DNA of 64,000 nt from Pseudooceanicola nitratireducens (GTDB lineage: Bacteria > Pseudomonadota > Alphaproteobacteria > Rhodobacterales > Rhodobacteraceae): assembly GCF_900109195.1 (NCBI RefSeq), contig NZ_FNZG01000008.1, forward strand, positions 1 to 64,000, read 5' to 3'. The translations under genes were made by a program, and so were the position numbers. Under the pieces are notes generated by a model. The model was given only the letters and a program-made list of their open reading frames with translations. It was not told the DNA's origin and did no database searches. Shown here in pieces: positions 938-64,000 of this stretch; position 1 is the first letter of the stretch; each line of letters starts with the position of its first letter.

Positions 938-1062
938 GGTTGGCCTTTTCCTTATTCACCTTCTGCATGGACAATCTATCCACTCATCGCATCAAAGGCA
1001 CGACAATTCGGCCACCTATTCCACGATATCCGGGCCATCCTCCCGCGAAAGGGAGGATCACC

Positions 1063-34442: not shown

Positions 34443-34763
34443 TTGCCAGTCCATTTTTTGACGAGTTCTCCCGAAGCGCTGCTTCGGGAGTTCAATCAGA
34501 GGATCGTCCAAGAAGACGATTGGGGGAAGGCCGACGGCTGGCTGCTGCAAGAGGGCAATGCCTTCTACCAGCATGCTGAAGACGTGTCCGACATCGGTGC
34601 AAGGCTCGTGCCGAGCATGGATGCGGACACGCTGTCCTTCGAGCTTCAGGCCAACGCCGGCAAGACCGTCCCGCTTGACGTGATCAAGCTGTACCATACC
34701 AGGCTGGTGGAAACCTTCCTCCGCTGGATGGACGTCCGCTTTGACGAAATTCGACTGAACTGA
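34443..34763 (+). CDS. hypothetical protein downstream of the NdmA-like gene
   Basis: This soluble acidic protein of about 106 residues starts at TTG 34443, supported by AGGAGG at 34430-34435. It opens PVHFLTSSPEALLREFNQ and ends FLRWMDVRFDEIRLN. It is predicted mostly helical, with no membrane segment and no Cys cluster. I recognise no family. It begins 23 bases after the demethylase stop and is co-directional with two further small genes, so it is probably an accessory of the demethylase or of substrate handling (inference). Confidence 0.65.
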   Translation: MPVHFLTSSPEALLREFNQRIVQEDDWGKADGWLLQEGNAFYQHAEDVSDIGARLVPSMDADTLSFELQANAGKTVPLDVIKLYHTRLVETFLRWMDVRFDEIRLN

Positions 34764-40347: not shown

Positions 40348-40372
40348 GACTAATCAACCAACAGGAGCAAAT

Positions 40373-44268: not shown

Positions 44269-44457
44269 TAAGCCTCTCCTCTAGCGACATCGGTCTTCCA
44301 GGGCTTTCGGGATCGCCGCAAGGTACCACCAGTCACCAGAGATTATTATCAACATTCCGTATAAAGTCCTTGGCGAAAGAACGCATATTCATTGAGATTG
44401 CCCTCCGCTAGCGTCCTGTCTGATTGCCCAGCCACATGTTCAGCCACGGAGGGATGC

Positions 44458-45909: not shown

Positions 45910-45921
45910 AGGAGCAGAGAC

Positions 45922-49493: not shown

Positions 49494-50339
49494 TCAGCGC
49501 GCCGGCGGGATGACACCTCCGATCGCCGCCGTAAGCTCGCGGGCTGCGTGCATCACTGCGCGGCTTGTTTCATCGGTGCTCTCCTCGCTCATCCGAATGA
49601 GCGGCCCCGACACAGAGACGCCCGCCGCCGCCTCGCCCGAGGCATCGAAGACCGCGGCTGCAATGCACCGCATTCCAAGGTTTTTTTCCTCCGCATCAAC
49701 GGCGTATCCGCGCGTCCGTATCACCTCGAGGTCAGACCTCAACGCGTCCGGCGATGCCAGGGTATGCGGCGTGAACCGTTCCATCCGCCTCGACAACAGC
49801 TTCTCAAGCCGCTCATTCGGGATCTCGGCCAGCAGCGCCTTGCCGATGCCCGAAGCATGCAACGGCGACAGCGTGCCCGGAGGAAAGAACGCGCGGATGC
49901 TCTCATGGGTCTCGACCTGGCTGACGAAAAGCACCGCATCCTCGCGCACGATGCCCAAGTTGGCCGTTTCCCCCGTCTCTTCCATGAGCCGACGCAGGAT
50001 AGGCCGTGCCCGCTCGACCAGACTGGTCCGACGCAGGAAACGCGCACCTATGACAAAGGCCTGCGGACCGATGTGCCACAGCTGTTCTGCCGGGTCGAAC
50101 TCGACCATCCGCCGCCCCTCGAGGGTGACAAGGATGCGATAGACCGTGGCCGGTGATTGCTGCAAATCCCCGGCAAGGTCCGACAAGGTGAGGCCGGATC
50201 GGCGGCTCAGATATTCCAGCACCTCCATCGCCCTATCGAGAGACTTGATCGTGTACTGCGCGCTGTTGTCATCCCAGCCGCGCGGCCGTCCCCGGTTTCG
50301 GCGAGGAGTGCTTTCCGTACTTTTCGGAGAATCCATCAA
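49494..50339 (-). CDS. bhcR: IclR family regulator BhcR
   Basis: This 281-residue IclR-family regulator has an N-terminal winged helix (SLDRAMEVLEYLSRRSGLTL, QQSPATVYRILVTLEGRRMV) and a C-terminal effector domain with GIVREDAVLFVSQVETHESI and MRCIAAAVFDASGEAAAGVS. It is divergent from bhcA across about 165 bases. In Paracoccus denitrificans BhcR controls the beta-hydroxyaspartate cycle genes and senses glyoxylate; the same gene order here supports that assignment. A second Met next to the first is an equally good start. Confidence 0.88.
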   Translation of the reverse strand: MMDSPKSTESTPRRNRGRPRGWDDNSAQYTIKSLDRAMEVLEYLSRRSGLTLSDLAGDLQQSPATVYRILVTLEGRRMVEFDPAEQLWHIGPQAFVIGARFLRRTSLVERARPILRRLMEETGETANLGIVREDAVLFVSQVETHESIRAFFPPGTLSPLHASGIGKALLAEIPNERLEKLLSRRMERFTPHTLASPDALRSDLEVIRTRGYAVDAEEKNLGMRCIAAAVFDASGEAAAGVSVSGPLIRMSEESTDETSRAVMHAARELTAAIGGVIPPAR

Positions 50340-50381: not shown

Positions 50382-50504
50382 AAGTTAACCGTCTGACAAC
50401 GATCGACTTTCCGACACATCGCGTTTATGAAAAATGATTTCAAAAAAATTTTGCCGCAGCCCCTGTCCGGTTACTCTGAAATCCAGCGACCACAGGAGGT
50501 GGCA

Positions 50505-51698
50505 ATGAGCTTCCAGAATCCCGTATTCATTCCGGGCCCGACCAATATCCCCGAAAGCCTTCGCAAAGCCTGCGACATGCCGACGATCGACCATCGCTCA
50601 CCATTGTTCGGGCAGATCCTTCACCCGGCGCGCGAGGGCGTGCGCAAGGTATTGCAGAGCGAGTCGGCCGAAATCTTCATCTTTCCTTCCACCGGCACAG
50701 GCGGATGGGAAACTGCGCTCAGCAATACTCTGTCGTCGGGTGATACCGTGCTGGCGGCCCGCAATGGCATGTTTAGCCACCGCTGGATCGACATGTGCCA
50801 GCGCCAAAGACTGCGAGTCGAGATCGTCGAAACCCCCTGGGGCGAGGGCCTGCCTGCGGACCGCTACGCCGAGATCCTGGCGGCCGACAAACATCACCGC
50901 ATCAAGGCAGTACTCGCCACCCACAACGAAACCGCCACCGGCGTGCGCTCGGACATCGCCGCAGTACGCCACGCGCTCGACGCGGCGGGCCACCCGGCTC
51001 TGCTCTTCGTCGATGGCGTAAGCTCGATCGGTTCGATGGATTTCCGCTTCGATGAGTGGGGTGTCGATTGCGCTGTCACCGGCTCTCAGAAGGGCTTCAT
51101 GCTGCCCCCCGGCCTCGCCATCGTCGGCTTCAGCGAAAAGGCCATGGAGGCGACCAAAATCGCCATGTTGCCGCGTACTTTCTTCGACGTGCATGACATG
51201 GCGAAGGGCTACGCCAACAACGCCTATCCCTATACCCCCGCCGTCGGCCTGATGAACGGGCTGAACGAGGCCTGCCGGATGCTGCTGGACGAAGGCCTCG
51301 AAAACGTCTTTGCCCGTCACCACCGCATTGCGGAAGGCGTGCGCTGCGCGGTCCGCGCATGGGGGCTGAACCTCTGTGCCGCTTCGCCTGATATCTATTC
51401 CGACACGGTCAGCGCGATCCGCACACCTAAGGGGTTCAACGCGACGGATATCGTCAGCCACGCCGCGCAGACCTATGGGGTCGCCTTCGGCACCGGGCTT
51501 GGCGAAGTCGCCGGAAAGGTGTTCCGCATTGGCCACCTTGGCAGCCTGACCGACGTGATGATGCTTTCTGGCCTTGCAACGGCCGAGATGTGCATGGCGG
51601 ACCTCGGGCTCGACATCACGCTCGGCTCGGGCGTTGCGGCAGCACAGGAATTCTACCGCGCCACGCCCGCCCTTTCCCGGAAGGTCGCCGCGGAATGA
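50505..51698 (+). CDS. bhcA: aspartate-glyoxylate aminotransferase BhcA
   Basis: This 397-residue class V PLP aminotransferase is the entry enzyme of the beta-hydroxyaspartate cycle. It transaminates glyoxylate to glycine with aspartate, giving oxaloacetate. Visible motifs are FIPGPTNIPESLR at the N-terminus, FPSTGTGGWETALSNTL (about residue 60), DGVSSIGSMDFRFDEWGVD (about 172), and the PLP lysine in TGSQKGFMLPPG (about 195). ATG 50505 follows CAGGAGG; an upstream start adds an unconserved peptide. Overlap with bhcB (ATGA) and the downstream bhcC-bhcD order identify it over an ordinary serine-glyoxylate aminotransferase. Confidence 0.93.
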   Translation: MSFQNPVFIPGPTNIPESLRKACDMPTIDHRSPLFGQILHPAREGVRKVLQSESAEIFIFPSTGTGGWETALSNTLSSGDTVLAARNGMFSHRWIDMCQRQRLRVEIVETPWGEGLPADRYAEILAADKHHRIKAVLATHNETATGVRSDIAAVRHALDAAGHPALLFVDGVSSIGSMDFRFDEWGVDCAVTGSQKGFMLPPGLAIVGFSEKAMEATKIAMLPRTFFDVHDMAKGYANNAYPYTPAVGLMNGLNEACRMLLDEGLENVFARHHRIAEGVRCAVRAWGLNLCAASPDIYSDTVSAIRTPKGFNATDIVSHAAQTYGVAFGTGLGEVAGKVFRIGHLGSLTDVMMLSGLATAEMCMADLGLDITLGSGVAAAQEFYRATPALSRKVAAE

Positions 51699-52666
51699 CG
51701 GACGGTGCCCTGAACATCCCAACCTATGACGACATGCTGGCGGCCCACGCCCGCATCGCGCCATACATACACCGCACCCCGGTCCTGACATCTTCTTTCC
51801 TGAATGACCTCACCGGAGCGCAGATCTTCTTCAAGTGCGAGAACTTCCAGAAGGCCGGGGCTTTCAAGGTTCGTGGGGCGTCCAACGCCGTCTTCGGCCT
51901 TTCGGATGCCGAGGCAGCCCGCGGCGTCTGCACCCACAGTTCCGGGAACCATGCCCTGTCGCTTAGCTACGCTGCCGGGCGGCGTGGCATCCCCTGCAAC
52001 GTGGTTATGCCTCGCACCGCTCCGCAGGCGAAGAAAGACGCCGTGCGGGGCTATGGCGGCATCATAACCGAGTGCGAACCGTCGACCTCGTCTCGCGAAG
52101 CGGTGTTCGCCGATGTGCAGGCAGAGACGGGTGGTGACTTCGTACACCCCTATAACGATCCGCGCGTGATCGCCGGCCAGGGCACCTGCGCGCGCGAGTT
52201 CATGGAACAGGCGGACGGGCTTGATATGGTCCTGGCACCGATCGGCGGGGGCGGCATGATCTCGGGCACCTGCCTGACGCTTTCCACACTTGCGCCCGAG
52301 GTACAGATCATTGCGGCCGAACCCGAACAGGCTGACGACGCCTACCGCAGCTTCAAGGCCGGACACATCATTGCCGATGATGCCCCCGAGACCGTGGCGG
52401 ATGGGCTGAAGGTGCCGCTCAAGGATCTAACCTGGCATTTCGTGTCGAACCACGTCAGCGACATCCTTACCGCCTCGGAGGACGAAATCGTCGACACGAT
52501 GAAGCTGATCTGGAAGCGTTTGAAAATCGTGATGGAACCCTCAAGTGCCGTTCCGCTCGCCACCGTCCTCAAGAACCGCGATCGCTTCGCCGGCAAGCGT
52601 GTCGGTATCATCATCACTGGCGGCAATGTCGATCTCGACCGCCTGCCCTGGACCAAAGGAACCTGA
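51695..52666 (+). CDS. bhcB: beta-hydroxyaspartate dehydratase BhcB
   Basis: This 323-residue fold-type II PLP enzyme of the serine/threonine dehydratase family removes water from (2R,3S)-beta-hydroxyaspartate to give iminosuccinate in the Bhc cycle. The PLP lysine lies in FKCENFQKAGAFKVRGASNA (about residue 55). The phosphate-contacting SSGNHALSLSYAAG and the glycine loop IGGGGMISGTCLT (about 184) are present. Without the operon it would be called threonine dehydratase. It begins within the bhcA stop and ends 3 bases before bhcC. Confidence 0.92.
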   Translation: MTDGALNIPTYDDMLAAHARIAPYIHRTPVLTSSFLNDLTGAQIFFKCENFQKAGAFKVRGASNAVFGLSDAEAARGVCTHSSGNHALSLSYAAGRRGIPCNVVMPRTAPQAKKDAVRGYGGIITECEPSTSSREAVFADVQAETGGDFVHPYNDPRVIAGQGTCAREFMEQADGLDMVLAPIGGGGMISGTCLTLSTLAPEVQIIAAEPEQADDAYRSFKAGHIIADDAPETVADGLKVPLKDLTWHFVSNHVSDILTASEDEIVDTMKLIWKRLKIVMEPSSAVPLATVLKNRDRFAGKRVGIIITGGNVDLDRLPWTKGT

Positions 52667-52669
52667 GTC

Positions 52670-53833
52670 ATGAATGCACCCGTGAACTTCGACCAACTCG
52701 AAGTCGGCTTTGACGTGCCGGCCTTGCCCGGGATGGATGCCGCAGAGATCCAGACCCCCTGTCTGGTGCTCGACCTTGACGCACTCGAACGCAATATTCG
52801 CAAGATGGGCGATTATGCCCGTGCTCACAACATGCGCCACCGCGTCCATGGCAAGATGCACAAATCGGTTGATGTGGCCAAGCTGCAGATCAAGCTTGGT
52901 GGTGCGATCGGTGTCTGCTGTCAAAAAGTTTCGGAGGCCGAGGTTTTTGTGCGGGGCGGCATCATCGATGTCCTGGTGTCGAACCAGGTACGCGATCCCC
53001 GAAAGATCGACCGTCTGGCACAACTGCCGAAACACGGTGCAAAGATCATTGTCTGCGTCGACGACATCGAAAACGTCGCGGAACTCTCAGATGCGGCGCA
53101 AAAGCATGGCACCACGCTGGAGTGCTTCGTCGAGATCGACTGCGGTGCCGGGCGCTGCGGCGTGACCACGGCAGACGCGGCAGTCGAAATCGCCCAGGCG
53201 ATCGATGCCGCCAAGGGGCTCAAATTCACCGGTATTCAGGCCTACCAGGGTGCGATGCAGCATCTCGACAGTTACGAAGCACGGCGCGACAAACTGAACG
53301 TGGCCATCGCCCAGGTGAAAGAGGCCGTAGCGGCGCTCGAAGCTGTCGGGCTGAAGCCCGAGCTGGTGTCGGGCGGCGGCACCGGAAGCTACTATTTCGA
53401 GAGTAATTCGGGCGTCTACAACGAGCTTCAGTGCGGCTCATATGCGTTCATGGATGCCGATTACGGTCGTATCCTCGACAAGGACGGCAACCGCATCGAC
53501 AATGGCGAATGGGAGAATGCCTTCTTCATTCTCACCCAGGTGATGAGCCATGCCAAGACCGACAAGGCGATCTGCGATGCTGGCCTCAAGGCACAATCGG
53601 TCGACAGCGGACTGCCGGTGGTCTTCGGACGAACCGATGTCGAATACGTCAAGTGTTCCGATGAACATGGCGTGATCGCCGATCCGAGTGGCGTCCTGAA
53701 AGTCGGCGAAAAGTTGAAGCTCGTGCCGGGTCATTGCGACCCCACTGCCAACGTCCACGATTGGTACGTCGGAGTTCGCGATGGCAAAGTCGAACAGCTC
53801 TGGCCGGTCTCGGCCCGCGGCAGAGCTTACTGA
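52670..53833 (+). CDS. bhcC: beta-hydroxyaspartate aldolase BhcC
   Basis: This 387-residue fold-type III PLP enzyme (D-threonine aldolase/DSD1 family) condenses glycine with glyoxylate to beta-hydroxyaspartate. The N-terminal alanine-racemase-like barrel carries the PLP lysine in RHRVHGKMHKSVDVAKLQ (about residue 60). GAIGVCCQKVSEAEVFVRG and a C-terminal DSD1 domain with metal-binding VPGHCDPTANVHDWYVG follow. It lies 3 bases from bhcB. Two stable hairpins separate it from bhcD. Confidence 0.93.
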   Translation: MNAPVNFDQLEVGFDVPALPGMDAAEIQTPCLVLDLDALERNIRKMGDYARAHNMRHRVHGKMHKSVDVAKLQIKLGGAIGVCCQKVSEAEVFVRGGIIDVLVSNQVRDPRKIDRLAQLPKHGAKIIVCVDDIENVAELSDAAQKHGTTLECFVEIDCGAGRCGVTTADAAVEIAQAIDAAKGLKFTGIQAYQGAMQHLDSYEARRDKLNVAIAQVKEAVAALEAVGLKPELVSGGGTGSYYFESNSGVYNELQCGSYAFMDADYGRILDKDGNRIDNGEWENAFFILTQVMSHAKTDKAICDAGLKAQSVDSGLPVVFGRTDVEYVKCSDEHGVIADPSGVLKVGEKLKLVPGHCDPTANVHDWYVGVRDGKVEQLWPVSARGRAY

Positions 53834-53853
53834 TCCTCTTCCAGATCCTCCCC

Positions 53854-53914
53854 TGCCCGGTCCGACAAGACCGGGCACACTTCGCCCGCGCGCTCACTGT
53901 CCCGGCGCGCGGGC
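53854..53914 (+). promoter_or_regulatory. two consecutive stem-loops between bhcC and bhcD
   Basis: The first stem is TGCCCGGTC (53854-53862) with GACCGGGCA (53869-53877). The second is GCCCGCGCGC (53884-53893) with GCGCGCGGGC (53905-53914). Both are perfect and neither has a U-tract. They probably set message stability or reduce bhcD expression relative to bhcABC rather than end transcription. Confidence 0.6.
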
Positions 53915-53938
53915 GACATTTCTTTGAAAGGAGAGCCC

Positions 53939-54904
53939 ATGCTTATTGTTCCTGAACGCGAGGTTGCCGGCCTGATGACCCGCGAGGCCGCCTTCACGGC
54001 GGTGGAACAGGTGTTCGCTGCAATGGCCAACGGCAATGCCTACAATTTTCCCGTCGTGCGCGAAGCGATCGGTCACGAAGATGCCCTTTACGGATTCAAA
54101 GGCGGCTTCGACAGAACCGGCCTTGCTCTCGGCCTCAAGGCCGGCGGCTACTGGCCGAACAACCTTGAAAAGCGGGGGATGATCAATCACCAATCCACCG
54201 TATTCCTGTTCGATCCGGACACGGGCAAGGCCAGGGCCATGGTCGGCGGCAACCTTCTGACGGCCCTGCGGACTGCCGCGGCCTCCTCGGTGTCGATCCG
54301 GCACCTTGCTCGTGAAGAATGTAAAGTGATCGGCATGGTCGGCGCAGGCCATCAGGCGACCTTCCAGCTGCGTGCGGCACTCGAACAGCGCGCATTCGAG
54401 AAGGTAATCGGCTGGAACATGCACCCCGAGATGCTGCCCAATATCGAAAAGGTCGCGGCCGAGGCCGGCCTGCCCTTCGAGGCGGTCGAACTGGACGGAC
54501 TGCGCGCTGCGGATGTGATCATTTCGATCACCTCATCTTTCGACGCGATCCTGACGGCCGACCACGTCGCACCCGGCACCCATATTGCCTGCATGGGCAC
54601 CGACACCAAAGGCAAGCAAGAGGTTTCGCCCGAACTGCTGAGCAAGGCCACCGTGTTCACCGATGAGGTCGCACAATCGGTGTCGATCGGCGAGGCACAA
54701 CATGCCGTGGCGCTTGGGCTCATCCGCGAGGCAGACATCTCGCAGCTTGGCGCGGTGATCGACGGCACGCACCCCGGCCGTCAGTCGGATGAGGAAATCA
54801 CGCTTTTTGACGGTACCGGCGTCGGACTTCAGGACCTTGCCGTTGCTGCCGCTGTGGTCGATCTTGCCGTTGAAAAGGGCATCGCCATCGAGGTTGATTT
54901 CTGA
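53939..54904 (+). CDS. bhcD: iminosuccinate reductase BhcD
   Basis: This 321-residue member of the ornithine cyclodeaminase/mu-crystallin family reduces iminosuccinate to aspartate with NAD(P)H, regenerating the amino donor for BhcA. The nucleotide fold is VIGMVGAGHQATFQLRAAL (about residue 130). The substrate-side YGFKGGFDRTGLALGLKAGG and a C-terminal LFDGTGVGLQDLAVAAAVVD are family features. ATG 53939 follows AAAGGAGAG. Without the operon it could be mistaken for ornithine cyclodeaminase. A terminator follows 8 bases after the stop. Confidence 0.92.
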   Translation: MLIVPEREVAGLMTREAAFTAVEQVFAAMANGNAYNFPVVREAIGHEDALYGFKGGFDRTGLALGLKAGGYWPNNLEKRGMINHQSTVFLFDPDTGKARAMVGGNLLTALRTAAASSVSIRHLAREECKVIGMVGAGHQATFQLRAALEQRAFEKVIGWNMHPEMLPNIEKVAAEAGLPFEAVELDGLRAADVIISITSSFDAILTADHVAPGTHIACMGTDTKGKQEVSPELLSKATVFTDEVAQSVSIGEAQHAVALGLIREADISQLGAVIDGTHPGRQSDEEITLFDGTGVGLQDLAVAAAVVDLAVEKGIAIEVDF

Positions 54905-55190: not shown

Positions 55191-55668
55191 TCATTCGATC
55201 CGGTAGGGTTCCCGGAACCAGTGTTCCTTCAGATTGTCCCCGTCACTGTTTCAATCGACCAACGGAAAGAGACCCGAACCGGAAAGCGGGCCCCGAACAC
55301 CGTGCCATCTGTTTGGGTGGACATTGATGCCGTACTTAAGTTGCGAGACGAAGGCCTGCAGACGAACCGGCTTGCGCTCCTCATCTGGCGGGGCAACTAT
55401 CAGAAAGCCATCCATCGGCGGTAGCGGGAAAGCCGGGCTGCCGGGCGGATGGCGCTCCATCATCTCCTGTCGGTACCGAAACGCGCGGCGCGGCCTCGAA
55501 AAGACTGATGCCGGCGCGTCCTTCTTCGGGAAAATCCAGCGTGGCGCGATCATGGTAGCGTCGTCAAAGCCGCTGTTAGATCATCGCGCCACGTGCCCTT
55601 TCAGTATCGAGCACCTCACCGAAGGGCGCGAAACCCTCGGCGGTCAGTGGCTTGATCCGGATCTTCAA
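55191..55668 (-). pseudogene. allA: decayed ureidoglycolate lyase
   Basis: Read on the minus strand from a TTG at 55668 that overlaps the puuE stop, the translation starts KIRIKPLTAEGFAPFGEVLD, an AllA N-terminus. It continues after in-frame TAA (55624-55561 segment) and TGA stops as RRYHDRATLDFPEEGRAGIS. Near 55480, in a CG-repeat, the frame shifts to AFRYRQEMMERHPPGS, then KYGINVHPNRWHGV, ending LFPLVD, a TGA, and NSDGDNLKEHWFREPYRIE before the last stop at 55191. The total is about 159 codons, the normal AllA length. Intact AllA splits ureidoglycolate into glyoxylate and urea. At least three nonsense codons and one frameshift make this copy inactive. Confidence 0.82.
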
Positions 55669-57089
55669 GCGCCCAGCATCTCAATCAGACGCAGTTCGGC
55701 GATGCGTTCAACTTGACGGCAGGCCTCGGCGAATTCCGTCGGACGATCGTTTAGGATCCGGCGGTGGAACCCATCCCGGATCGAAGCCTTGCTATGGTCC
55801 TTCACCGCAATGATGAAAGGAAAACCATGGCGCGACATGTACTCGGCGTTGAGTCTTCGGAAGACCTCGCGTTCCCGGTCAGTCAGCATATCAAGCTCCG
55901 CCTCCGCCTGCGCATCTTTGGACTCAGCGGTCAGCCGTCCCGCGGTGGCAAGCTTGCCCGCAAAATCGGGCTGAGCCTTCAGAACGCCCAGGCGCTGTTC
56001 ATCCGTGGCCGACCGGAACACCCGTGCCAGCGCATTATGGACACCGGCAGCACTGTCGTGATGAGCGCCCAGTTCAAGCGCATGCGCCCCCTCGGCGATC
56101 CACGAAGAATGCTCGAATACGCCGCCGAAGGCCTCGACGAAGTTTTGACGGTCCATCTGTGACGGGCGGGGGCCGGTCCTGGGCGGATGGGTCTTCGCCC
56201 AATGGTCCGCGATTTCTTCGCGGGTGGCGAACCAGACGCCCTCGTGCCCGGCCATGTGCTCCAGCACGCGCCTGAGCGCAATGACCCGCCCCGGGCGACC
56301 GACCAGACGACAGTGAAGGCCGATGGACAGCATCTTCGGCTGGCCCCTCTGACCCTCGGCATAAAGCATGTCAAAGCTGTCCTTCAGGTATCCTTCGAAC
56401 TGCGCACCATCGGTAAAGCCAGCCTGGATCGCGAAACGCATGTCGTTGCAATCCATGGTATAGGGCACGATCAGCTGATCCTTATCGCCCGCTTCGACCC
56501 AATAGGGCAGATCGTCTGCGTAACTGTCGGCGATATAGGCAAAATTCGCCTCGGACGCGGCCAGGTTGATGGTGTTCATCGAACACTGCCCGGTATACCA
56601 GCCACGCGGCGCGCTGCCTGTCACCTCGGTGTGCAGCCGGATCGCCTCTCGGATCTGGGCGCGTTCTTCCTCGGAGGACATGTCCCTGTGCTCGACCCAC
56701 TTGAGACCATGGCTGGCGATCTCCCAGCCGGCCTCTTGCATTGCCTTGACCTGCTCCGGCGCGCGCGCCAGCGCGGTCGCGACACCGTAGACAGTTACGC
56801 CACCCTTGCCGACAACGTCTGTCAGAAGATCCTTCAGGCGCCAGAATCCTGCCCGGCTGCCGTATTCATAGATCGTTTCCATGTTCCAGTGCCGCTGGCC
56901 GGGCCAGGGCCGAGCGCCGGTGATCTCGGACAGGAATGCCTCGGACGCCGAATCGCCGTGCAGGATGTTGTTCTCGCCGCCCTCTTCGTAGTTGACCACG
57001 ATCTGAACAGCGATCTTGGCACCATTTGGCCATTGGGCATCGAGCATATTCGGGCCGTGACCGACCATGTCTCGGGGATAGCGTTGCAA
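55665..57089 (-). CDS. puuE: bifunctional allantoinase PuuE / OHCU decarboxylase
   Basis: This fusion of about 474 residues has an N-terminal polysaccharide-deacetylase-like allantoinase (PuuE): QRYPRDMVGHGPNMLDAQWP, IVVNYEEGGENNILHGDSAS, ASHGLKWVEHRDMSSEEE, and SIGLHCRLVGRPGR. From about residue 315 an OHCU decarboxylase (UraD) domain follows: FVEAFGGVFEHSSWIAEGA, then YMSRHGFPFIIAVKDHSKAS. It thus decarboxylates OHCU to allantoin and hydrolyses allantoin to allantoate. The start is TTG 57089, 7 bases after GGAGGT; a TTG at 57095 is too close to that site. The downstream partner allA is a pseudogene. Confidence 0.9.
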   Translation of the reverse strand: MQRYPRDMVGHGPNMLDAQWPNGAKIAVQIVVNYEEGGENNILHGDSASEAFLSEITGARPWPGQRHWNMETIYEYGSRAGFWRLKDLLTDVVGKGGVTVYGVATALARAPEQVKAMQEAGWEIASHGLKWVEHRDMSSEEERAQIREAIRLHTEVTGSAPRGWYTGQCSMNTINLAASEANFAYIADSYADDLPYWVEAGDKDQLIVPYTMDCNDMRFAIQAGFTDGAQFEGYLKDSFDMLYAEGQRGQPKMLSIGLHCRLVGRPGRVIALRRVLEHMAGHEGVWFATREEIADHWAKTHPPRTGPRPSQMDRQNFVEAFGGVFEHSSWIAEGAHALELGAHHDSAAGVHNALARVFRSATDEQRLGVLKAQPDFAGKLATAGRLTAESKDAQAEAELDMLTDREREVFRRLNAEYMSRHGFPFIIAVKDHSKASIRDGFHRRILNDRPTEFAEACRQVERIAELRLIEMLGA

Positions 57090-57634
57090 ATCCAAACCTC
57101 CGTTTTAACCGCCTTCTAGGCGATGAAATCGCCCGGAATTATCAAAAAGAATGCGAAAGAGACTTCGGCAACTGCCGCTTTGCCTGCCTGACATTTACGG
57201 GGTTGGAAAATGGCATGAGACGTCCGGCAGGAGCTCAGGATGACCGGAGACCTTGCGCCCCATGGTCTTGTTACTGCCTGCGGGATGCCCGCCGAGGGCA
57301 TCACGATCCCGCTTGATCTAGGCTCGGAAACGTCTCACCGGACAATCGCCAAGAGCGTGACAAATCACGATGGCCGTACCGACATTCCGGACCGGCGTCC
57401 GGCGGTCGGGCTCAGCGGCCCATCGACCTGCAAGCCGCAATCTCCCGCCTTCGACCAGGGTAGAAACTGACGGGCCGACCGAGAATCGCCGTCAAACGGC
57501 GGCTCTCCGGAGCGGCCTGACGTCTCGTTCATAATCCGAAACACAAAGTACAATTTAATGCACTTTTTGAAACGAAAGCTCCTCCGCTAGGCTTCTTGAA
57601 AGCAACTATTAACGGTAGCCAACCGGGAGGTATA
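57090..57634. other. 545-base divergent promoter gap, puuE / NdmB-like operon
   Basis: I see no gene. The last 100 bases are AT-rich; TTGAAA at 57567-57572 and TAGGCT at 57588-57593 are a weak promoter candidate (spacer 15 bases). The first bases hold the puuE ribosome-binding site on the minus strand. Confidence 0.45.
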
Positions 57635-58690
57635 ATGAACGCCCTGTCCCCACTCACCGCAGACCAAAGCTATCTGCGTCATTTCTGGCATCCTGTCGCA
57701 ACTGTCAACGAACTTGAGGCCGCCGATCCGGCGGGCAACGGCCCGATCGGCCGGACGCTTCTTGACGAACCTCTGGTTATCGCACGACTGGACGGAAAAT
57801 ATGTGGCCATGCACGATCGATGCGCACATCGCTTTGCGAAGCTGTCCGTCGGCAAGGTGCTGGACAACAACCGTATCCAATGCCCCTATCACGGCTGGGA
57901 ATATGGTGCCAGCGGCCGCTGCGAACATATGCCGGCCTGTCCGAACGACGCGATTCCGAAAAAGGCATTCACCCCTGCCTTTGACTGCGAAGAGCGATAC
58001 GGGATCATCTGGGTCCGCCTCGACAGTTCCTGGGATTGCACCAACATTCCTTACTGCGAAGCCTGGGAAAACCCGGAATACAAGCGCCAGATCGTCGCCG
58101 AACCCTACAACTGGGACAGCTCGGCCGAACGCCGCTGGGAAAACTTTACCGATTTCTCGCACTTCGCCTATGTGCATCCGGGCACCCTCTATGACCCGGC
58201 GTATTCCGAACCGGCAATCGTGCCTGTTGACCGTGTCGGCGGCGAACTTCGCTTCTTCATGGAGCCGGGACGCGACATGCTCGACACCCTGCCGGACGAT
58301 AGTCCCCTTGGAAGCTGGAATTACCGCAACACCATGCCGTTCAGCGTCAACCTGTCGATCAGGCTGTACAAGAACGACCAGCCCTTCCTTCTCTGGACGA
58401 CCTCGAGCCCGATCTCGGCGACCTCGTGCCGGAACTTCATGATCATCGCACATACCGACGAAAACCTGCCCGACAGTCAGCCGCTCGACTTCCAGAAAAT
58501 CGTTCTGGCTGAGGACCAACCGGTCATTGAGACGCAGCCCGGCCCGATCTATCTGGACGAAGTCTCGCTGCCGACGGACAAGATCTCGAACCAGTACCGG
58601 AAATGGCTGAGGGAACTGTCCGCAGCAGCGGCAAAAGGCGAAGAGGCCTTCAAGGCGGCCCTTTATACCGACGTCACCGAGAGCAAGTGA
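57635..58690 (+). CDS. NdmB-like Rieske N-demethylase oxygenase
   Basis: This 351-residue Rieske oxygenase is paralogous to the one at 33.3 kb. Rieske ligands are C63, H65, C83 and H86 (RCAHR ... CPYHGW). Iron ligands include H176 and H181 in ENFTDFSHFAYVHPG. Segments LWTTSSPISATSCRNFMII and HPGTLYDP resemble, as I recall, NdmB (N3-demethylase) more than NdmA. The expected reaction is removal of a purine N3-methyl group as formaldehyde. ATG 57635 follows GGGAGG. It heads an operon of nine genes and lies 4 bases before the NdmC-like gene. Confidence 0.87.
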   Translation: MNALSPLTADQSYLRHFWHPVATVNELEAADPAGNGPIGRTLLDEPLVIARLDGKYVAMHDRCAHRFAKLSVGKVLDNNRIQCPYHGWEYGASGRCEHMPACPNDAIPKKAFTPAFDCEERYGIIWVRLDSSWDCTNIPYCEAWENPEYKRQIVAEPYNWDSSAERRWENFTDFSHFAYVHPGTLYDPAYSEPAIVPVDRVGGELRFFMEPGRDMLDTLPDDSPLGSWNYRNTMPFSVNLSIRLYKNDQPFLLWTTSSPISATSCRNFMIIAHTDENLPDSQPLDFQKIVLAEDQPVIETQPGPIYLDEVSLPTDKISNQYRKWLRELSAAAAKGEEAFKAALYTDVTESK

Positions 58691-58694
58691 AAGA

Positions 58695-59516
58695 ATGGAC
58701 GCTCACGATGACGCGGAGGTCTGGAACCGTTGGTACCCACTCGGGTCACCAACGGACATCCGGCGGAGGAACGCGACCAAAACCCGGCTTCTGGGCCATG
58801 AGATCGACCTGGAAATCCACCAGACGTGGATTTCAGCGTCGGTCGGCTCGCGCCCTTTGCCGATTACCGAACGACTGGGGTATATCTGGACAAGTCTTGG
58901 CGACCCCGACGGCCCGCCCCAACAATTGCTCGAATATTACGAGGTCGATCGCCTCGTCATGAATATCTGGTCCACGCCCATCAAGTGTTCGGGCCTTCGG
59001 ATCGTGGACAACGTGATCGACAACGCCCACTTCCCGTTCCTGCACCCCCATGTCCTGGGCGATGAGGAGCATCTGGACCTGGTCCCGGGGGAAGCAAGCG
59101 TCGACGACCAGGGTGCCTTGTGGCTGAAGTCGCAGAAAGCCTGGCTGCCTCTGACGAATTCGGTTGCGGAATACACCTATCGGATTTCCGATCCATATTC
59201 GGTGGTTCTGTTCATCCATCGCCCTGAAACACCGGGTCGATACGACTATCTCGGCATTTTTGCGCAGCCCTTGGATGAAGAAAGCTTCATCGCCCACAAG
59301 ATGCTTGCCTGGATCAGGGAAGACTGGATGGACGAGCGCCAGTTGAAGGCCGACCAACAGAGCATCTCTGCGCAGGACAAATACGTCCTTGAACGGCATG
59401 CCCACAAGAAACTGCCCCTCAATGACGTCGAAACCTCCATCGAGGTGGACAGGTCTTCGTTGCGCTACCGGGAATGGTTGCGGGCCCGAAATGTCAACTA
59501 CGGAGCGATGACATGA
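58695..59516 (+). CDS. NdmC-like oxygenase subunit lacking a Rieske domain, copy 1
   Basis: This 273-residue protein has only the catalytic half of a Rieske oxygenase. There is no CxH/CxxH pair. The mononuclear iron motif is DNVIDNAHFPFLHPHVLG (H112, H117 and nearby D105 or D109), and WLRARNVNYGA closes the protein. In Pseudomonas putida the N7-demethylase NdmC is likewise Rieske-less and depends on the Rieske centre of NdmD and on NdmE. By analogy this should remove an N7-methyl group of methylxanthine. It overlaps the following Rieske-type gene (ATGA), implying co-assembly. Confidence 0.83.
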   Translation: MDAHDDAEVWNRWYPLGSPTDIRRRNATKTRLLGHEIDLEIHQTWISASVGSRPLPITERLGYIWTSLGDPDGPPQQLLEYYEVDRLVMNIWSTPIKCSGLRIVDNVIDNAHFPFLHPHVLGDEEHLDLVPGEASVDDQGALWLKSQKAWLPLTNSVAEYTYRISDPYSVVLFIHRPETPGRYDYLGIFAQPLDEESFIAHKMLAWIREDWMDERQLKADQQSISAQDKYVLERHAHKKLPLNDVETSIEVDRSSLRYREWLRARNVNYGAMT

Positions 59517-60046
59517 CCTCCTACGTTGTTGCACTCGAAAAAGACGTCCGGCCGAATTCGATCGTCAGGTCGATGATGGGGGACACCCCCCTGGTCATCT
59601 GGAGAGGCTCCAGTGGCGCGATCCACGTCTGGCTGGATTGCTGCCCGCATCGCTCTGTCAGACTTAGCGCCGGACGGAACATGGGGGACTATCTCGAAGG
59701 CGTGTACCACGGATGGCGTTTCGACGAAACCGGACTGGTCACACTGGTTCCCGCGTTGCAGGGTCGCCCGTCCGAAGACATTCGCGCAACCGTCTATTCC
59801 ACAGCGTTGGCAGACGGCTTTGTCTGGGCGAGCGATGACGCTTGTACGCCTGCGGAAAGCGCCGGAGAGCCCTGCTATCCGGTCCACATCGCGGCACCGA
59901 TCGACCAAGTCCGGCAGCAAGTCGATACCGCAGTCGATCATCTTACCCCCTGGGGAACACAGGAAACGATGGTCTATCCAACAGGGAATCCAGAACAAAG
60001 ACGCGCCGAATTGTCCGCGATTAGGCTAAGATTGGAGGAGTCATGA
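59513..60046 (+). CDS. stand-alone Rieske-fold protein with a missing cysteine ligand, copy 1
   Basis: This 177-residue protein looks like the Rieske half of an oxygenase or of NdmD. The first ligand pair is C44 and H46 (CCPHRSVRLSAG). The second motif reads LEGVYHGW, so the expected cysteine at position 63 is glycine (codon GGC at 59699-59701, one base from TGC) while H66 remains. The adjacent C43 is not a normal substitute. The protein may not hold a standard 2Fe-2S cluster and could be structural, or the copy may be impaired. ATGA overlaps on both sides tie it to the NdmC-like and GST genes. Confidence 0.8.
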   Translation: MTSYVVALEKDVRPNSIVRSMMGDTPLVIWRGSSGAIHVWLDCCPHRSVRLSAGRNMGDYLEGVYHGWRFDETGLVTLVPALQGRPSEDIRATVYSTALADGFVWASDDACTPAESAGEPCYPVHIAAPIDQVRQQVDTAVDHLTPWGTQETMVYPTGNPEQRRAELSAIRLRLEES

Positions 60047-60684
60047 TACAGCTCCATGACTACCCACTTTCGGGGAACTGCTTCAAAGTCCGCTTCCTGA
60101 TGGATCAGCTGGACCTGGACTACCAGTCGACCCTTGTCGATTTCTATCCCGGGTACGAGCATAAATCGCCACGTTTCCTCAAGATCAATCCCTTGGGGCA
60201 ACTTCCGGTCATCGAGGACAACGGTCAAACCATTCGCGATGCGCAGGCCATCCTGGTCTATCTGGCGACCGCATATGATACGTCCGGCACGTGGTTCCCG
60301 CGCGACCGGCAAGGCGAGATCTACCAATGGCTCGCCTTCGCGGACGAGTTGACCGGATCCATCTCGGCTGCGCGGCTTCATGATGCGATGTTCTATAGCC
60401 TGGACGTTGCCAAGGCCCGGGCGAGAGGCACCAAGCTGCTGCGGATCGTCGACGAACATCTCTGGTTCACCGAAAAAGACGGCCACGACTGGTTGGTGCC
60501 GTTGCCGCATCCGACCATCGCTGATGTCGCCTGCCTTCCCTACATCGCGCTCGCCGAAGAAGGCGGGATTGACCTTGCTCCCTATCCTTCCGTCGCACGG
60601 TGGATGGAGCGCTTTATGAGACTCGAGAAGTTCAAGCCGATGCCCGGCATGATGCCTCTTGAAATGCCGAAGGAAACGCCATGA
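60043..60684 (+). CDS. GST-family protein, NdmE-like, copy 1
   Basis: This 213-residue glutathione S-transferase-fold protein has a thioredoxin-like N-terminal domain (IQLHDYPLSGNCFKVRFLMD, KINPLGQLPVIEDNGQTI, DAQAILVYLA) and a helical C-terminal domain. In the Pseudomonas caffeine N7-demethylase, the GST-like NdmE has a structural role in the NdmCDE complex. Position between a Rieske protein and the reductase, with ATGA overlaps to both, supports that role. A true glutathione-dependent activity, for example on formaldehyde, cannot be excluded. Confidence 0.83.
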   Translation: MIQLHDYPLSGNCFKVRFLMDQLDLDYQSTLVDFYPGYEHKSPRFLKINPLGQLPVIEDNGQTIRDAQAILVYLATAYDTSGTWFPRDRQGEIYQWLAFADELTGSISAARLHDAMFYSLDVAKARARGTKLLRIVDEHLWFTEKDGHDWLVPLPHPTIADVACLPYIALAEEGGIDLAPYPSVARWMERFMRLEKFKPMPGMMPLEMPKETP

Positions 60685-61628
60685 ATACTCAACGGGTAAA
60701 AGTCAGGCGAATTGTAGAACAGACGCCGGAAATCCGGTCATTCGAACTCGTCCCCTGCGATGGATCTTCTGTCAGTTTCACGCCCGGAGACCATATCGAC
60801 GTCCACGCCGGCAAAGACCTCATTCGCCAGTACTCGCTCTGGAACGGGCCCGATGACCGCGACGCCTATCAGATCGGCGTAAAGCGCGAGGAGAACGGCC
60901 GGGGCGGATCCGCCGCGATGCACACTCTCAAAGAGGGTGACGAGATCGAAGTGAGCTTGCCCCGCAACAACTTTGAACTTCGGTCCGACGACGGCCCGGT
61001 GATCCTGATCGCCGGCGGGATCGGTATCACACCGGTACTGTCGATGGCGCGGCACCTTCAGGCCATGAACCGCAAATGCGTGCTTCACCTGTTTGCCCGA
61101 AGCGACGAGCATCTGCCCTTCAAGAACGAGCTGGCAGCGCTGGACGAGGTTCCGATCCATCTTGGGCTTGTTCCCCCGGAACTTGACGCTGTTCTGACTC
61201 GGATCCTGTCCAACCCGCCCAAGGATGCACGCTTGTATTTCTGCGGCCCCGGGCCCTTCATGGACCTGATCGAGAACTTGGCGAAGACCTGCGGCTGGAG
61301 CAGCGATCGTGTCCATCTGGAACGTTTCAGCGTCGAGGCGGACTCGCTCGACCTCGACGGGGAGAGCTTTGAGCTCGTGCTTCAACAATCGGGCGTCACC
61401 CTGACGATTGCCGAAGGCCAGACCATCATCGAAGCGATGGAAGCAGCCGGTCTTGAGCCGATGACATCCTGCGAACAGGGCGTTTGCGGCACCTGCCTGA
61501 CGACGGTCCTGGAGGGAGAGCCGGATCACCGCGACCTCTACCTCAATCCCGCCGAGAAGGACTCCGGCACGCTGATCATGCCTTGCGTGTCTCGATGCAA
61601 GGGCAAGAAACTGGTTCTGGACCTGTAA
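60681..61628 (+). CDS. FMN/2Fe-2S oxygenase reductase (NdmD C-terminal-like)
   Basis: This 315-residue electron-transfer protein is of the phthalate dioxygenase reductase class. The flavin domain (RQYSLWNGP, residues 1-100) is followed by an NADH domain (LIAGGIGITPVLSMARHLQA, about 112; YFCGPGPFMDLI, about 190). A C-terminal plant-type ferredoxin domain has CEQGVCGTCLTTVLEG and PCVSRC. It passes NADH electrons to Rieske centres. NdmD of Pseudomonas carries an extra N-terminal Rieske domain, which is absent here and encoded separately. It is the only such reductase in the window, so it probably serves all the demethylases. Confidence 0.9.
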   Translation: MNTQRVKVRRIVEQTPEIRSFELVPCDGSSVSFTPGDHIDVHAGKDLIRQYSLWNGPDDRDAYQIGVKREENGRGGSAAMHTLKEGDEIEVSLPRNNFELRSDDGPVILIAGGIGITPVLSMARHLQAMNRKCVLHLFARSDEHLPFKNELAALDEVPIHLGLVPPELDAVLTRILSNPPKDARLYFCGPGPFMDLIENLAKTCGWSSDRVHLERFSVEADSLDLDGESFELVLQQSGVTLTIAEGQTIIEAMEAAGLEPMTSCEQGVCGTCLTTVLEGEPDHRDLYLNPAEKDSGTLIMPCVSRCKGKKLVLDL

Positions 61629-61629
61629 C

Positions 61630-61863
61630 ATGGTAACGCGACGCGTATCTCTTGAGGGCGCACTCAGCACTGAATCATGCCTGGCCATGATCAGTCACTT
61701 TGCAAGGCGCCTCTCCCTGACGAGCACAATCACAAGCGCGTCGCCCAGATCCATTTCCATCATGCTGACCGGAGATGAACGGGTCATCGACATGTTCGAG
61801 ATCGCCTGCTGGCTCGGGCCTGACGACGTGACAGTCGACACGATCACAGTCGAAATCGTCTGA
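61630..61863 (+). CDS. small hypothetical protein
   Basis: This 77-residue protein starts MVTRRVSLEGALSTESCLAM, one base after the reductase stop, and ends in an acidic segment GPDDVTVDTITVEIV. It is predicted alpha/beta, with no membrane helix or metal motif. I recognise no family. Tight spacing with the reductase suggests co-translation. A short inverted repeat follows at 61881-61915, before the second Rieske gene, and may mark an internal processing or attenuation point. Confidence 0.6.
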   Translation: MVTRRVSLEGALSTESCLAMISHFARRLSLTSTITSASPRSISIMLTGDERVIDMFEIACWLGPDDVTVDTITVEIV

Positions 61864-61973
61864 CGCGGTGCAGAACCCAAGCCCGGCACCGCGGACGGGA
61901 CTGAAAAAGCCGGGCCCGATCAGGGCCCAGCCAACCAGGTCTCAGGGCTTACAACACAGAAATGGGGAGTGAA

Positions 61974-62645
61974 ATGCAATCTACAGAACTCGAAGCCGGA
62001 TGGTTCCCTGCCGGACTTCAGAACCACGTTCTTCCCAAGACGGCGGGACGTATCATGATCGGTGACAAGGACATCGCCCTATGGCGCGGTGAAGATGGCA
62101 AGATCAGGGCATGGGAAAACAGATGCCCGCACCGCGGTATGCGGTTGTCCTATGGCATCGTTCGCGGGAACACGCTGACATGCCTATACCATGGCTGGTC
62201 CTACGACGGCACCGGGGGCTGCGCAGGAATTCCGGCACATCCGGATCTGACGCCGCCCAAGACGATCCGCACCAAGGTTTACCGCGCAGCGGATTCCGGT
62301 GGTATGATCTGGGTCGCAAACCCCGAAGAAGCCACCGAGGTCCCTGCGATTGACGGTGCCTGGGCCCCCAACCGTTCGATCCATGTCGATGTGGCTCCGG
62401 CGAACATTGCAGCTCTGACCGAGGGCATCGGAGCCGAGCTGCAGTCCAAGATCACCGATCACGCCGCGATCCTCCGCGTCCCGAACATCGAGGAAGACAT
62501 CCTCGTGGCCTTCCTCGACATGAAGGAGCACGGCGCAATGATCCACACTGCGGTTCCGGCCAAGGCTACGGAAGCTGTCGCAATCGCCGTCAGCAAGCTG
62601 TCCACCCATCTGCGGCAGGTCTTCAAGGCGTCCAGCGCCGCTTAA
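61974..62645 (+). CDS. stand-alone Rieske protein with intact ligands, copy 2
   Basis: This 223-residue protein has an N-terminal Rieske domain with complete ligands C51, H53, C70 and H73 (CPHRGMRLSYG ... LTCLYHGWSYDG). A C-terminal part of about 110 residues has no mononuclear iron motif. ATG 61974 is preceded by GGGGAG; an ATG 12 bases earlier is less well placed. It looks like the missing N-terminal half of NdmD made as a separate chain, and would relay electrons from the 315-residue reductase to the Rieske-less oxygenases. The next gene is the second NdmC-like subunit, 59 bases on. Confidence 0.85.
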   Translation: MQSTELEAGWFPAGLQNHVLPKTAGRIMIGDKDIALWRGEDGKIRAWENRCPHRGMRLSYGIVRGNTLTCLYHGWSYDGTGGCAGIPAHPDLTPPKTIRTKVYRAADSGGMIWVANPEEATEVPAIDGAWAPNRSIHVDVAPANIAALTEGIGAELQSKITDHAAILRVPNIEEDILVAFLDMKEHGAMIHTAVPAKATEAVAIAVSKLSTHLRQVFKASSAA

Positions 62646-62704
62646 CAGGCCTCATAGCCTAGCAAGTTGATCGTCTCACTTCGACAAGCGAGGAGAAACA
62701 TACT

Positions 62705-63559
62705 ATGAAACCCGATTCATTCACCCATTCGCAATGGTACGCCATCGGCCGCATTGGCGATTTCGAAGGTGCGAACGCCAAACCTGTCCGGCTGCTCTCG
62801 CAGGACTTGACGGTGAACAACTCGGCTGGCGTTCTGTCGGTCGCGGATGCCGAAGGTCGCAGCCTTCAGTCGCAGATCCGCTATGGCCATCTCTGGACCA
62901 CGCTCAGCGACAATCCCCGCCCGCTGTATGACATGCCCGAATTCGACGAACCGGACCGCCGCCTTGTGACCGCTGGCGGCGTGGGCGTCCGATGCTCCGG
63001 TCTGCGGTGCGTCGAGAACTTCCTCGACATGGCGCATTTCCCCTTCGTTCACACGGACATCCTTGGTGTGGAAGACCATTCTACCGTCGAAAACTACGAC
63101 GTCAGCATGGATGCAGACAAAGACGAGATCTGGGCGACCAAATGCAAGTTCTTCCAGCCCCTCGCCTCGGCGGCGGCCACGGGCGGACAGATGACGGAAT
63201 ACAAGTATCGCGTTCCGCATCCCTATTCGACCATCCTCTACAAGACATGCCCTATCCGGGAAAATGTCTGGGATCTGGTCGGCCTGTTCATCCAGCCCGT
63301 GGAAGAAGACGAATGCATCGTTCATTCGTTCATCCTGGTCTTCGATGAAGACAACACCGACACCGGTCTTCTTCACTTTCAGCAGAACATCTTTCTGCAG
63401 GACCGGATGATCCTTGAAAATCAGGTTCCCCGGAAACTGCCGCTCGATCCCCGATGGGAACTTCCGACACGGGCAGACGCATCTTCCATCGCCTATCGCC
63501 GTTGGCTGAAGGCCAATGAACTCCAGTGGGGGATCGCCCTCTTCGACAAGGCGGCATGA
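62705..63559 (+). CDS. NdmC-like oxygenase subunit lacking a Rieske domain, copy 2
   Basis: This 284-residue catalytic-only oxygenase subunit has the iron motif ENFLDMAHFPFVHTDILG (H111, H116) and no Rieske cysteines. The N-terminus HSQWYAIGRIGDFEGANAK and the closing YRRWLKANELQWGIALF parallel copy 1, so the two are diverged paralogs. It is followed one base after its stop by a second GST-like gene, repeating the oxygenase/Rieske/GST set. A different N-methyl position or a different methylxanthine is the likeliest reason for two sets (inference). Confidence 0.84.
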   Translation: MKPDSFTHSQWYAIGRIGDFEGANAKPVRLLSQDLTVNNSAGVLSVADAEGRSLQSQIRYGHLWTTLSDNPRPLYDMPEFDEPDRRLVTAGGVGVRCSGLRCVENFLDMAHFPFVHTDILGVEDHSTVENYDVSMDADKDEIWATKCKFFQPLASAAATGGQMTEYKYRVPHPYSTILYKTCPIRENVWDLVGLFIQPVEEDECIVHSFILVFDEDNTDTGLLHFQQNIFLQDRMILENQVPRKLPLDPRWELPTRADASSIAYRRWLKANELQWGIALFDKAA

Positions 63560-63560
63560 A

Positions 63561-64000
63561 ATGAAGCTTTATGACTATGTCCTGTCCGGCAACTGCTACA
63601 AGATCAGGTTGCTTCTGGATTTCCTGGAAATTGCTCACGAAAAGCAGGCCGTGGACTTCTTCCCGGGGCTTGAACACAAGTCCGATGCCTTCCTTCGGAT
63701 AAACCCTTTGGGGCAAATCCCTGTGTTGGAAGATGACGGGGCCCATATCCGTGATGCACAGGCAATTCTCGTCTATCTGGCATCGCGCTACGACCCCGAT
63801 AACACGTGGTGGCCCGTTAATGACCCAGCACAGCTGGGCCGGGTCGCGCAATGGCTGGCTTTCGCGGACAGCATCACCTCCACCGCCTCCGCGGCGCGGC
63901 TGCATGACGTGCTTGGTTACGATCTGGACGTGGAGCAGGCACGGGCGGGTGCCCATCGGCTGTTCCGGATCCTGGATGACCATCTGGCAAACCAGGAACT
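63561..64000 (+). CDS. GST-family protein, NdmE-like, copy 2 (cut by window end)
   Basis: The first 146 codons of a second GST-like protein are present. It parallels copy 1 almost segment by segment: MKLYDYVLSGNCYKIRLLLD, HKSDAFLRINPLGQIPVLED, IRDAQAILVYLASRY, and TASAARLHDVLGYDLDVEQA. The ATG at 63561 comes one base after the oxygenase stop. The gene runs off the right edge, so the C-terminal helices are missing only because of the window. It is expected to pair with the NdmC-like copy 2. Confidence 0.83.
   Translation, partial: MKLYDYVLSGNCYKIRLLLDFLEIAHEKQAVDFFPGLEHKSDAFLRINPLGQIPVLEDDGAHIRDAQAILVYLASRYDPDNTWWPVNDPAQLGRVAQWLAFADSITSTASAARLHDVLGYDLDVEQARAGAHRLFRILDDHLANQE

Follow-up and report, generated by a model that had tools for sequence, protein, structure and literature searches.

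How does a Rieske oxygenase work when its cluster, its iron, its scaffold and its reductase are each encoded on a separate chain? This question is raised by a run of nine genes at 57635-64187 in a 65,844-base contig of Pseudooceanicola nitratireducens (NZ_FNZG01000008.1), which has rRNA genes at its end and of which the first 64,000 bases constitute the window analyzed here. The genes all lie on the forward strand, in the order ROA, C1, R1, G1, RED, sORF, R2, C2 and G2. ROA (57635-58690) is a full Rieske oxygenase resembling the N3 demethylase NdmB. According to domain models, C1 (58695-59516) and C2 (62705-63559) match VanA_C-type catalytic domains and no Rieske domain, R1 (59513-60046) and R2 (61974-62645) match Rieske models only, G1 (60043-60684) and G2 (63561-64187) match glutathione S-transferase (GST) domains, and RED (60681-61628) matches FAD, NAD and Fer2 (plant-type ferredoxin) domains but no Rieske domain. 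The small gene sORF (61630-61863, 77 codons) begins 1 base after RED and precedes R2. Another locus of the same genome (G000:C20:10212-11132, locus L068) encodes a second reductase, 41% identical to RED. A sequence-only reading of this DNA had described two sets of Rieske-less oxygenase, Rieske protein and GST sharing one reductase. Its coordinates, the absence of a Rieske domain from C1 and C2, and the separation of the Rieske part from the reductase were all borne out; its list of genes had missed sORF and ROA, and the last part of G2 lies beyond the window end at 64000.

ROA stops 4 bases upstream of C1 and is part of the same run. Its ATG start was adopted because in Paracoccus versutus a stop codon breaks the longer frame that would begin with the TTG at 57596. 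The tight coupling described earlier for both sets holds for C1-R1, R1-G1 and G1-RED, which overlap by ATGA, and for C2-G2, which are separated by 1 base; R2 and C2, however, are 59 bases apart, so that set 2 (R2, C2, G2) is coupled only in part, and its order R-C-G differs from the C-R-G of set 1 (C1, R1, G1). Identity between the sets is 34% for C1/C2, 33% for R1/R2 and 55% for G1/G2. The nine genes occur in the same order in P. versutus (L077) and on a Komagataeibacter plasmid (L157), with 79-93% protein identity to the window, and ratios of nonsynonymous to synonymous substitution rates (dN/dS) of the operon genes were 0.05-0.17 when each of these copies was compared with the window. A frameshift, an assembly artefact or chance was ruled out, since three species share the gene order and have these frames open.

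The Rieske part was found to be a free chain in 99 of 106 loci encoding a C chain and a fused one in six. None was visible in the remaining locus (L079), which starts inside C at the contig start. With an R-type chain, free or fused, in 105 of the 106 loci, the Rieske proteins cannot be regarded as unrelated to the adjacent oxygenases. These loci comprise the best 80 of at least 563 confirmed C relatives from a contig scan, which lean towards C2-like chains, together with 19 same-family loci, 6 plasmid loci and the window. One locus (L049) was left out of the tallies as coming from the same genome as L048, so that the second C of genome G046 is not counted, and one family-scan match (G033) is not among the long fetched loci. 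As loci end at about 9-10 kb or at contig ends, all absences reported are lower bounds of presence. In the six fused loci, C and GST genes flank one chain of 569-588 residues. A profile of the free R chains matches these six chains from residue 4-8 to residue 209-242, and RED matches them from residue 259-279 to their ends. Because the two align colinearly to the fused chains, R2 and RED correspond to the N-terminal and C-terminal parts of an NdmD-like protein. The fused chains compared are those of Sinorhizobium meliloti pSymA, a Mesorhizobium plasmid, Pseudomonas putida plasmid p420352, a Klebsiella pneumoniae plasmid and two further genomes, NdmD of P. putida CBB5 itself not being among them.

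By sequence, then, C2, R2 and G2 are an NdmCDE-like unit whose NdmD is encoded apart, as R2 and RED. Portions of two reviews (PMC4408171, PMC10380055) describe the C-D-E composition in Pseudomonas. Like NdmCDE, the 7-methylxanthine N7-demethylase of P. putida CBB5, as presented there, the system in the window has a Rieske-less oxygenase with the iron-ligand motif (C1, C2), a GST-like, NdmE-like partner (G1, G2), a Rieske domain outside the oxygenase, a FAD or FMN/NADH/[2Fe-2S] reductase, and a methylxanthine gene neighbourhood including VOC and formaldehyde genes. Unlike in CBB5, the Rieske-reductase fusion is absent, R2 and RED being separate open reading frames; an acylphosphatase-fold gene is present, as is a second C-R-G set with a ligand-deficient R1; and a Bhc glyoxylate pathway adjoins. 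The arrangement had been called new. Its chains are indeed separate, but split clusters are common in Rhizobiales and Rhodobacterales, and clusters homologous to ndmCDE, mostly from Sinorhizobium and Mesorhizobium, were already found by Summers et al. in 2013, with splitting not mentioned in the available portion of the source (PMC4408171). A literature search, outside which most subscription journals fall, found no paper on a split NdmD, so that one may be in print. The split unit is a variant of the known NdmCDE type, and the claim of novelty needs tempering accordingly.

The C and R chains appear to be oxygenase chains reduced in opposite directions. The iron ligands DxxHxxxxH and QD are present in 111 of 111 C chains, and a stricter pattern fits 109 of them; the two that fail it (L160, L161) deviate solely downstream of QD. 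Both C1 and C2 retain DxxHxxxxH with the subsequent Asp, which are invariant in all 15 chains of a first C alignment. A Rieske motif was found in 0 of the 111. Cluster ligands are intact in 105 of 108 R chains, the three exceptions being the R1s; R2 carries both the CxH and the CxxH ligands, the second as CLYH. The predicted structure of R2 (predicted local distance difference test, pLDDT, 95) continues beyond the Rieske domain as beta-alpha-beta4-alpha, the first helix being short and the second long. The top 24 entries that it matched in the PDB are all full-length oxygenase chains of SxtT/GxtA, with template modelling (TM) scores of 0.69-0.76 of the query over 260-284 alignment columns. Since the Rieske domain is little over half of the chain, too short for such a TM score, the fold match covers more than this domain. 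In the tail, only one His is nearly invariant among 52 aligned R chains, indicating that no iron site is left in R2. R2 is therefore predicted to be a miniature Rieske oxygenase with its cluster site intact and its iron site gone, and the C chains, judged by their motifs, are its counterpart, having lost the Rieske motif while keeping the iron ligands. Among solved structures, C1, C2 and R2 come closest in sequence to SxtT and GxtA, which R2 also resembles most in fold; SxtT and GxtA differ in being single complete chains with other substrates. In normal trimers, the cluster and the iron of neighbouring subunits lie about 12 Å apart, according to the accessible part of PMC12445004. By analogy, C and R would complete each other across a subunit contact.

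The mechanism that we consider the most probable, with moderate confidence, is as follows. ROA and a second full oxygenase of the window, RO2, would be N3 and N1 demethylases, respectively, and C2, R2, G2, RED and sORF would form one complex, an NdmCDE-type N7-demethylase with a divided NdmD. Electrons would pass from NADH through FAD to the plant-type [2Fe-2S] cluster of RED, next reach the Rieske cluster in R2, and cross the subunit interface to the mononuclear iron of C2, which would oxidize the N7-methyl group to formaldehyde. R2 would have kept the cluster with a collapsed catalytic domain, and C2 the iron site while losing the cluster lobe, so that a ring of alternating R2 and C2 chains could restore the normal cluster-to-iron geometry, with G2 as an NdmE-like scaffold. 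In set 1, C1 keeps its iron site, and R1 would be unable to hold the usual cluster; R1 and G1 would have structural roles, and C1 would take its electrons from R2. Domains, ligands, NdmD colinearity, conservation and folds, taken from sequences and models, form the basis on which the complex, the electron route, the substrate and the roles of sORF and set 1 are inferred. A broader reading is held only tentatively: a widespread class of Rieske oxygenases would consist of cluster-only and iron-only alpha chains, clamped by GST-like and dead acylphosphatase-fold subunits, with NdmD-like fusion going together with the absence of the latter, R1 being a metal-less structural pseudo-Rieske chain, and most members serving N7-methylated nucleic-acid purines and not caffeine. 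With each function on a separate chain, the roles of cluster, iron, scaffold and reductase become testable one by one; the interest of the system is raised further by the overlooked small gene, by the miniature-oxygenase character of R and by R1 as a pseudo-Rieske chain.

The survey bears on how general this composition is. A GST gene is present in 103 of the 106 loci and in 96 of the 99 with a free Rieske chain, and the three that lack it (L134, L136, L155) have R at the very edge. Counting its own genome, the C family occurs in 21 of 295 genomes of the family, 8 of 385 of the class and 7 of 22 of the genus. In a second arrangement, exemplified by L081, L098 and L115, the small gene, R and GST stand on one strand and C stands on the other, with a transporter and a guanine-deaminase-like gene, which implies that C is separable from R within a locus. 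A tree was built from 54 rows, two of them outgroup chains and the other 52 a thinned selection of 112 C chains. In 90% of bootstrap trees a single branch has all 45 split rows to one side (support 90/66), and the 7 fused rows need 2 changes. Because the outgroup is very distant and C1 sits on a long branch, either fusion or fission may have come first.

The gene that the sequence-only reading overlooked, sORF, may supply a further subunit. Of the 99 free-Rieske loci, 93 have a relative of it, and of the six fused loci, none; 90 of the 93 carry the small gene on the same strand, with its end no more than 450 bases ahead of the Rieske domain. A dN/dS of 0.12-0.14 against the window indicates that it is under selection as a protein. 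The acylphosphatase family PF00708 matches 28 of 52 aligned relatives (a subset of the 93) but not sORF of the window itself; the predicted structure of the latter (pLDDT 96.8) matches acylphosphatases in PDB (E 1.2e-5), and one relative (L162) is annotated as acylphosphatase. On the L157 plasmid, sORF is annotated merely as a shorter, 48-codon hypothetical protein. Although the fold is that of acylphosphatase, only 2 of the 52 members retain the Arg that follows Phe in the VQGVGFR loop and only 1 the Asn of VRN, with columns taken from an alignment with 1v3z. We take these positions to be the catalytic residues of acylphosphatase, and as they are not kept, a structural role is likelier than hydrolysis. 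On the model, sORF is probably a non-catalytic assembly subunit acting on R. A Fisher test of the association with the split form (93 of 100 against 0 of 6) gave p = 1e-6 with relatedness ignored, and the association may reflect a single event, since a branch of moderate support has the split C chains to one side. No paper joining acylphosphatase and Rieske oxygenase was found in the literature search. The gene is a concrete candidate for a missing subunit, which would be useful for making 7-methylxanthine or caffeine sensors.

Several results weigh against the mechanism proposed above or narrow its reach. At just 5 of the 99 loci with a free Rieske chain does the fetched stretch include RED, and of 21 genomes bearing C, 7, all of the split form, gave no RED homologue anywhere at E 1e-25. 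Electron transfer from RED to R2 is thus not a general rule, and the idea of one shared reductase, which fits the three copies of the island, is not borne out by the fetched stretches of most relatives. sORF lies away from R in 3 of its 93 loci and was not found in six free-Rieske loci (L044, L047, L078, L080, L089, L119). In the tree, the split group does not include the NdmC-like chains from the plasmids of P. putida and K. pneumoniae. R1 has a dN/dS of 0.30 when L077 is compared with L157, the highest value among ten genes, so that for this pair its constraint is the loosest. Finally, a guanine- or 8-oxoguanine-deaminase-like gene occurs in 74 of the 99 free-Rieske loci, whereas an NdmA/NdmB-like chain, at 250 bits, occurs in only 4 (the window, L077, L078, L157); the substrate of most such loci, and perhaps that of C2, may not be 7-methylxanthine.

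What, then, is the substrate in the window? To judge from the genes around it, the operon probably supplies the demethylases of a catabolic island for methylxanthines of the caffeine type. RO2 (33340-34419, forward strand) scores 556 bits against NdmA and 427 against NdmB, and ROA 436 against NdmB and 407 against NdmA. Two active-site mutations are described as switching NdmA from N1 to N3 (Kim 2019, as cited in the portion of PMC8055839 available). At the corresponding positions, aligned with wild-type NdmA, the QL mutant and NdmB, RO2 reads FND..F, with N and F as in NdmA, and ROA reads FQK..L, with Q and L as in NdmB. RO2 and ROA are thus relatives of NdmA and NdmB with matching residues, the latter pair forming an alpha3alpha'3 heterohexamer (6ICK, 6ICL; PMC12445004, in part); unlike those of NdmA and NdmB, their genes lie about 23 kb apart. 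RO2 is followed at 34443-34763 by a 106-codon gene that has no Pfam or NCBIfam match, is 74% identical in P. versutus and K. nataicola, and is adjoined there by a weak second copy. The window further encodes S-(hydroxymethyl)glutathione dehydrogenase for formaldehyde removal (31447-32604, reverse strand; TIGR02818, 605.7 bits against a cut-off of 543.95); xanthine dehydrogenase XdhA and XdhB (44392-48249, forward; TIGR02963 and TIGR02965 above cut-off); BhcA-BhcB-BhcC-BhcD for glyoxylate assimilation (50427-54904, forward) with the regulator BhcR (49494-50339, reverse), all above the cut-offs of NCBIfam models; and PuuE allantoinase fused to OHCU decarboxylase (55665-57095, reverse; TIGR03212 and TIGR03164 above cut-off). 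Use of methylxanthine is inferred from the NdmA-like and NdmB-like chains together with these formaldehyde, xanthine, allantoin and glyoxylate genes, which suggest that methylxanthine is channelled by way of xanthine, urate and allantoin into central metabolism. A BMP-type ABC transporter (ATPase, two permeases and binding protein; 36804-41455, forward) resembles 'B6 ABC transporter' models, all below their cut-offs; a BMP-type transporter protein also occurs in 77 of the 99 free-Rieske loci.

For the relatives, another substrate has to be weighed seriously: the split N7-type unit, at least in most of them, would act on N7-methylated guanine from RNA or cap turnover, before or after deamination, and would have been recruited to caffeine in this island. 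We regard this as a real possibility, though not yet a probable one. Besides the frequency of deaminase-like genes and the rarity of NdmA/NdmB-like chains given above, guaD adjoins NdmCDE-like genes in Mesorhizobium AR02, and P. alcaliphilus has an annotated 8-oxoguanine deaminase. The common deaminase, however, scored 368.6 of the 532 bits required by the 8-oxoguanine deaminase model (in L092), and of two guanine-deaminase-like genes tested, that of L081 was above its cut-off and that of L042 just below. Such neighbours would also fit general purine scavenging, and no deaminase gene of this kind was found from window position 30001 to the contig end. For most of the other free-Rieske loci, 7-methylguanine or 7-methylxanthine is, from the gene content, a better guess than caffeine, and the purine-deaminase neighbourhoods suggest a use of N7 demethylation outside caffeine. 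In the Pseudomonas and Klebsiella plasmid loci L160 and L161, NdmC-NdmD-NdmE-like genes stand beside genes for a TIM-barrel protein and 2-oxoglutarate-dependent oxygenases, and that of Pseudomonas also has an annotated urate hydroxylase; the substrate there may not be caffeine either. The literature search found no paper combining 7-methylguanine, demethylase and Rieske. Homarine catabolism was dropped as a candidate, the search having given nothing relevant.

Are the two sets equivalent, as the term "duplicated" had implied? The evidence argues otherwise. R1 reads CPHR...GVYH, so that one of the four cluster ligands is Gly in place of the Cys of CLYH in R2. The substitution is found in 3 of 3 R1 copies (window, L077, L157), and a sequencing error as its source was ruled out by the same residue in L077 and L157. 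The IPAHP motif of R2-type chains is also altered in R1, its tail is short, and C1 occupies a very long branch of the C tree. In three other lineages (G046, L051, L158), two C genes stand in the fetched stretch with a single R and a single GST. Because of the ligand loss, the long C1 branch and these lineages, one shared electron relay is likelier than two equivalent sets. The R1 gene has a gene-finding score below cut-off, which its conservation outweighs: dN/dS against the window is 0.16-0.17 for R1, compared with 0.14-0.16 for R2. R1 is therefore probably a non-redox subunit, kept under purifying selection despite the lost ligand; R1 and G1 are probably structural partners, and C1 most likely draws its electrons from R2. 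If true, R1 would show that a cofactor subunit can become scaffold in nature. Among the loci and searches here, only the window, P. versutus DSM 582 and plasmid pKNA08 yielded the C1-R1-G1 set; queried with C1, the other six C-bearing genomes of the genus gave matches of 28-34%, and 1 of 225 plasmid records exceeded 80%.

It is rather doubtful that set 1 is instead an independent second demethylase, in which R1 binds a cluster through a substitute ligand and serves C1 on another substrate. Such a role would agree with the iron ligands of C1, with the purifying selection on C1, R1 and G1 (dN/dS 0.08-0.17 against the window copies) and with the ATGA overlaps along C1-R1-G1-RED; the change from Cys to Gly in every R1, the altered IPAHP motif and the occurrence, in three other lineages, of two C genes beside a single R and a single GST speak against it.

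Quite unlikely, too, is that R2 (and R1) serve as electron shuttles of the ordinary Rieske ferredoxin kind and have no structural place in the oxygenase. An oxygenase that has a free Rieske chain and a reductase for neighbours does resemble a three-component system, and ferredoxin-type Rieske chains do match R2, albeit weakly. R2 is nevertheless closer to oxygenase alpha chains (91.5 bits for SxtT, compared with 27.4 bits or less for Rieske ferredoxins), and unlike the ferredoxins of three-component oxygenases it has a tail of about 90 residues, constituting a helix-grip domain. The pairing that defines such systems, a ferredoxin-type Rieske protein with an oxygenase carrying its own cluster, was not found here. 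As all 111 C chains lack a cluster motif of their own, a ferredoxin shuttle would have to reach the iron directly, and in six loci R is covalently joined to the reductase. That set 1 is a decaying duplicate on its way out is very improbable: the lost metal ligand and short tail of R1, the very long branch of C1 and the R1 ratio of 0.30 point that way, but the ratios of 0.08-0.17 against the window and frames intact in three species of two orders do not.

The Komagataeibacter copy lies at 97896-138714 of plasmid pKNA08 (NZ_CP118673.1), typed as conjugative, from K. nataicola of a kombucha tea culture. This locus carries the whole operon together with NdmA-like, VOC and S-formylglutathione hydrolase genes and insertion sequence (IS) elements, and its operon DNA is 84% identical to that of the window. 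Between P. versutus and pKNA08 the proteins are 94-99% identical; as the hosts belong to different orders, recent transfer is indicated. Far from the operon, at 940-4494, the window also contains a 1184-codon open reading frame with pyruvate-ferredoxin-oxidoreductase and DUF6537 domains.

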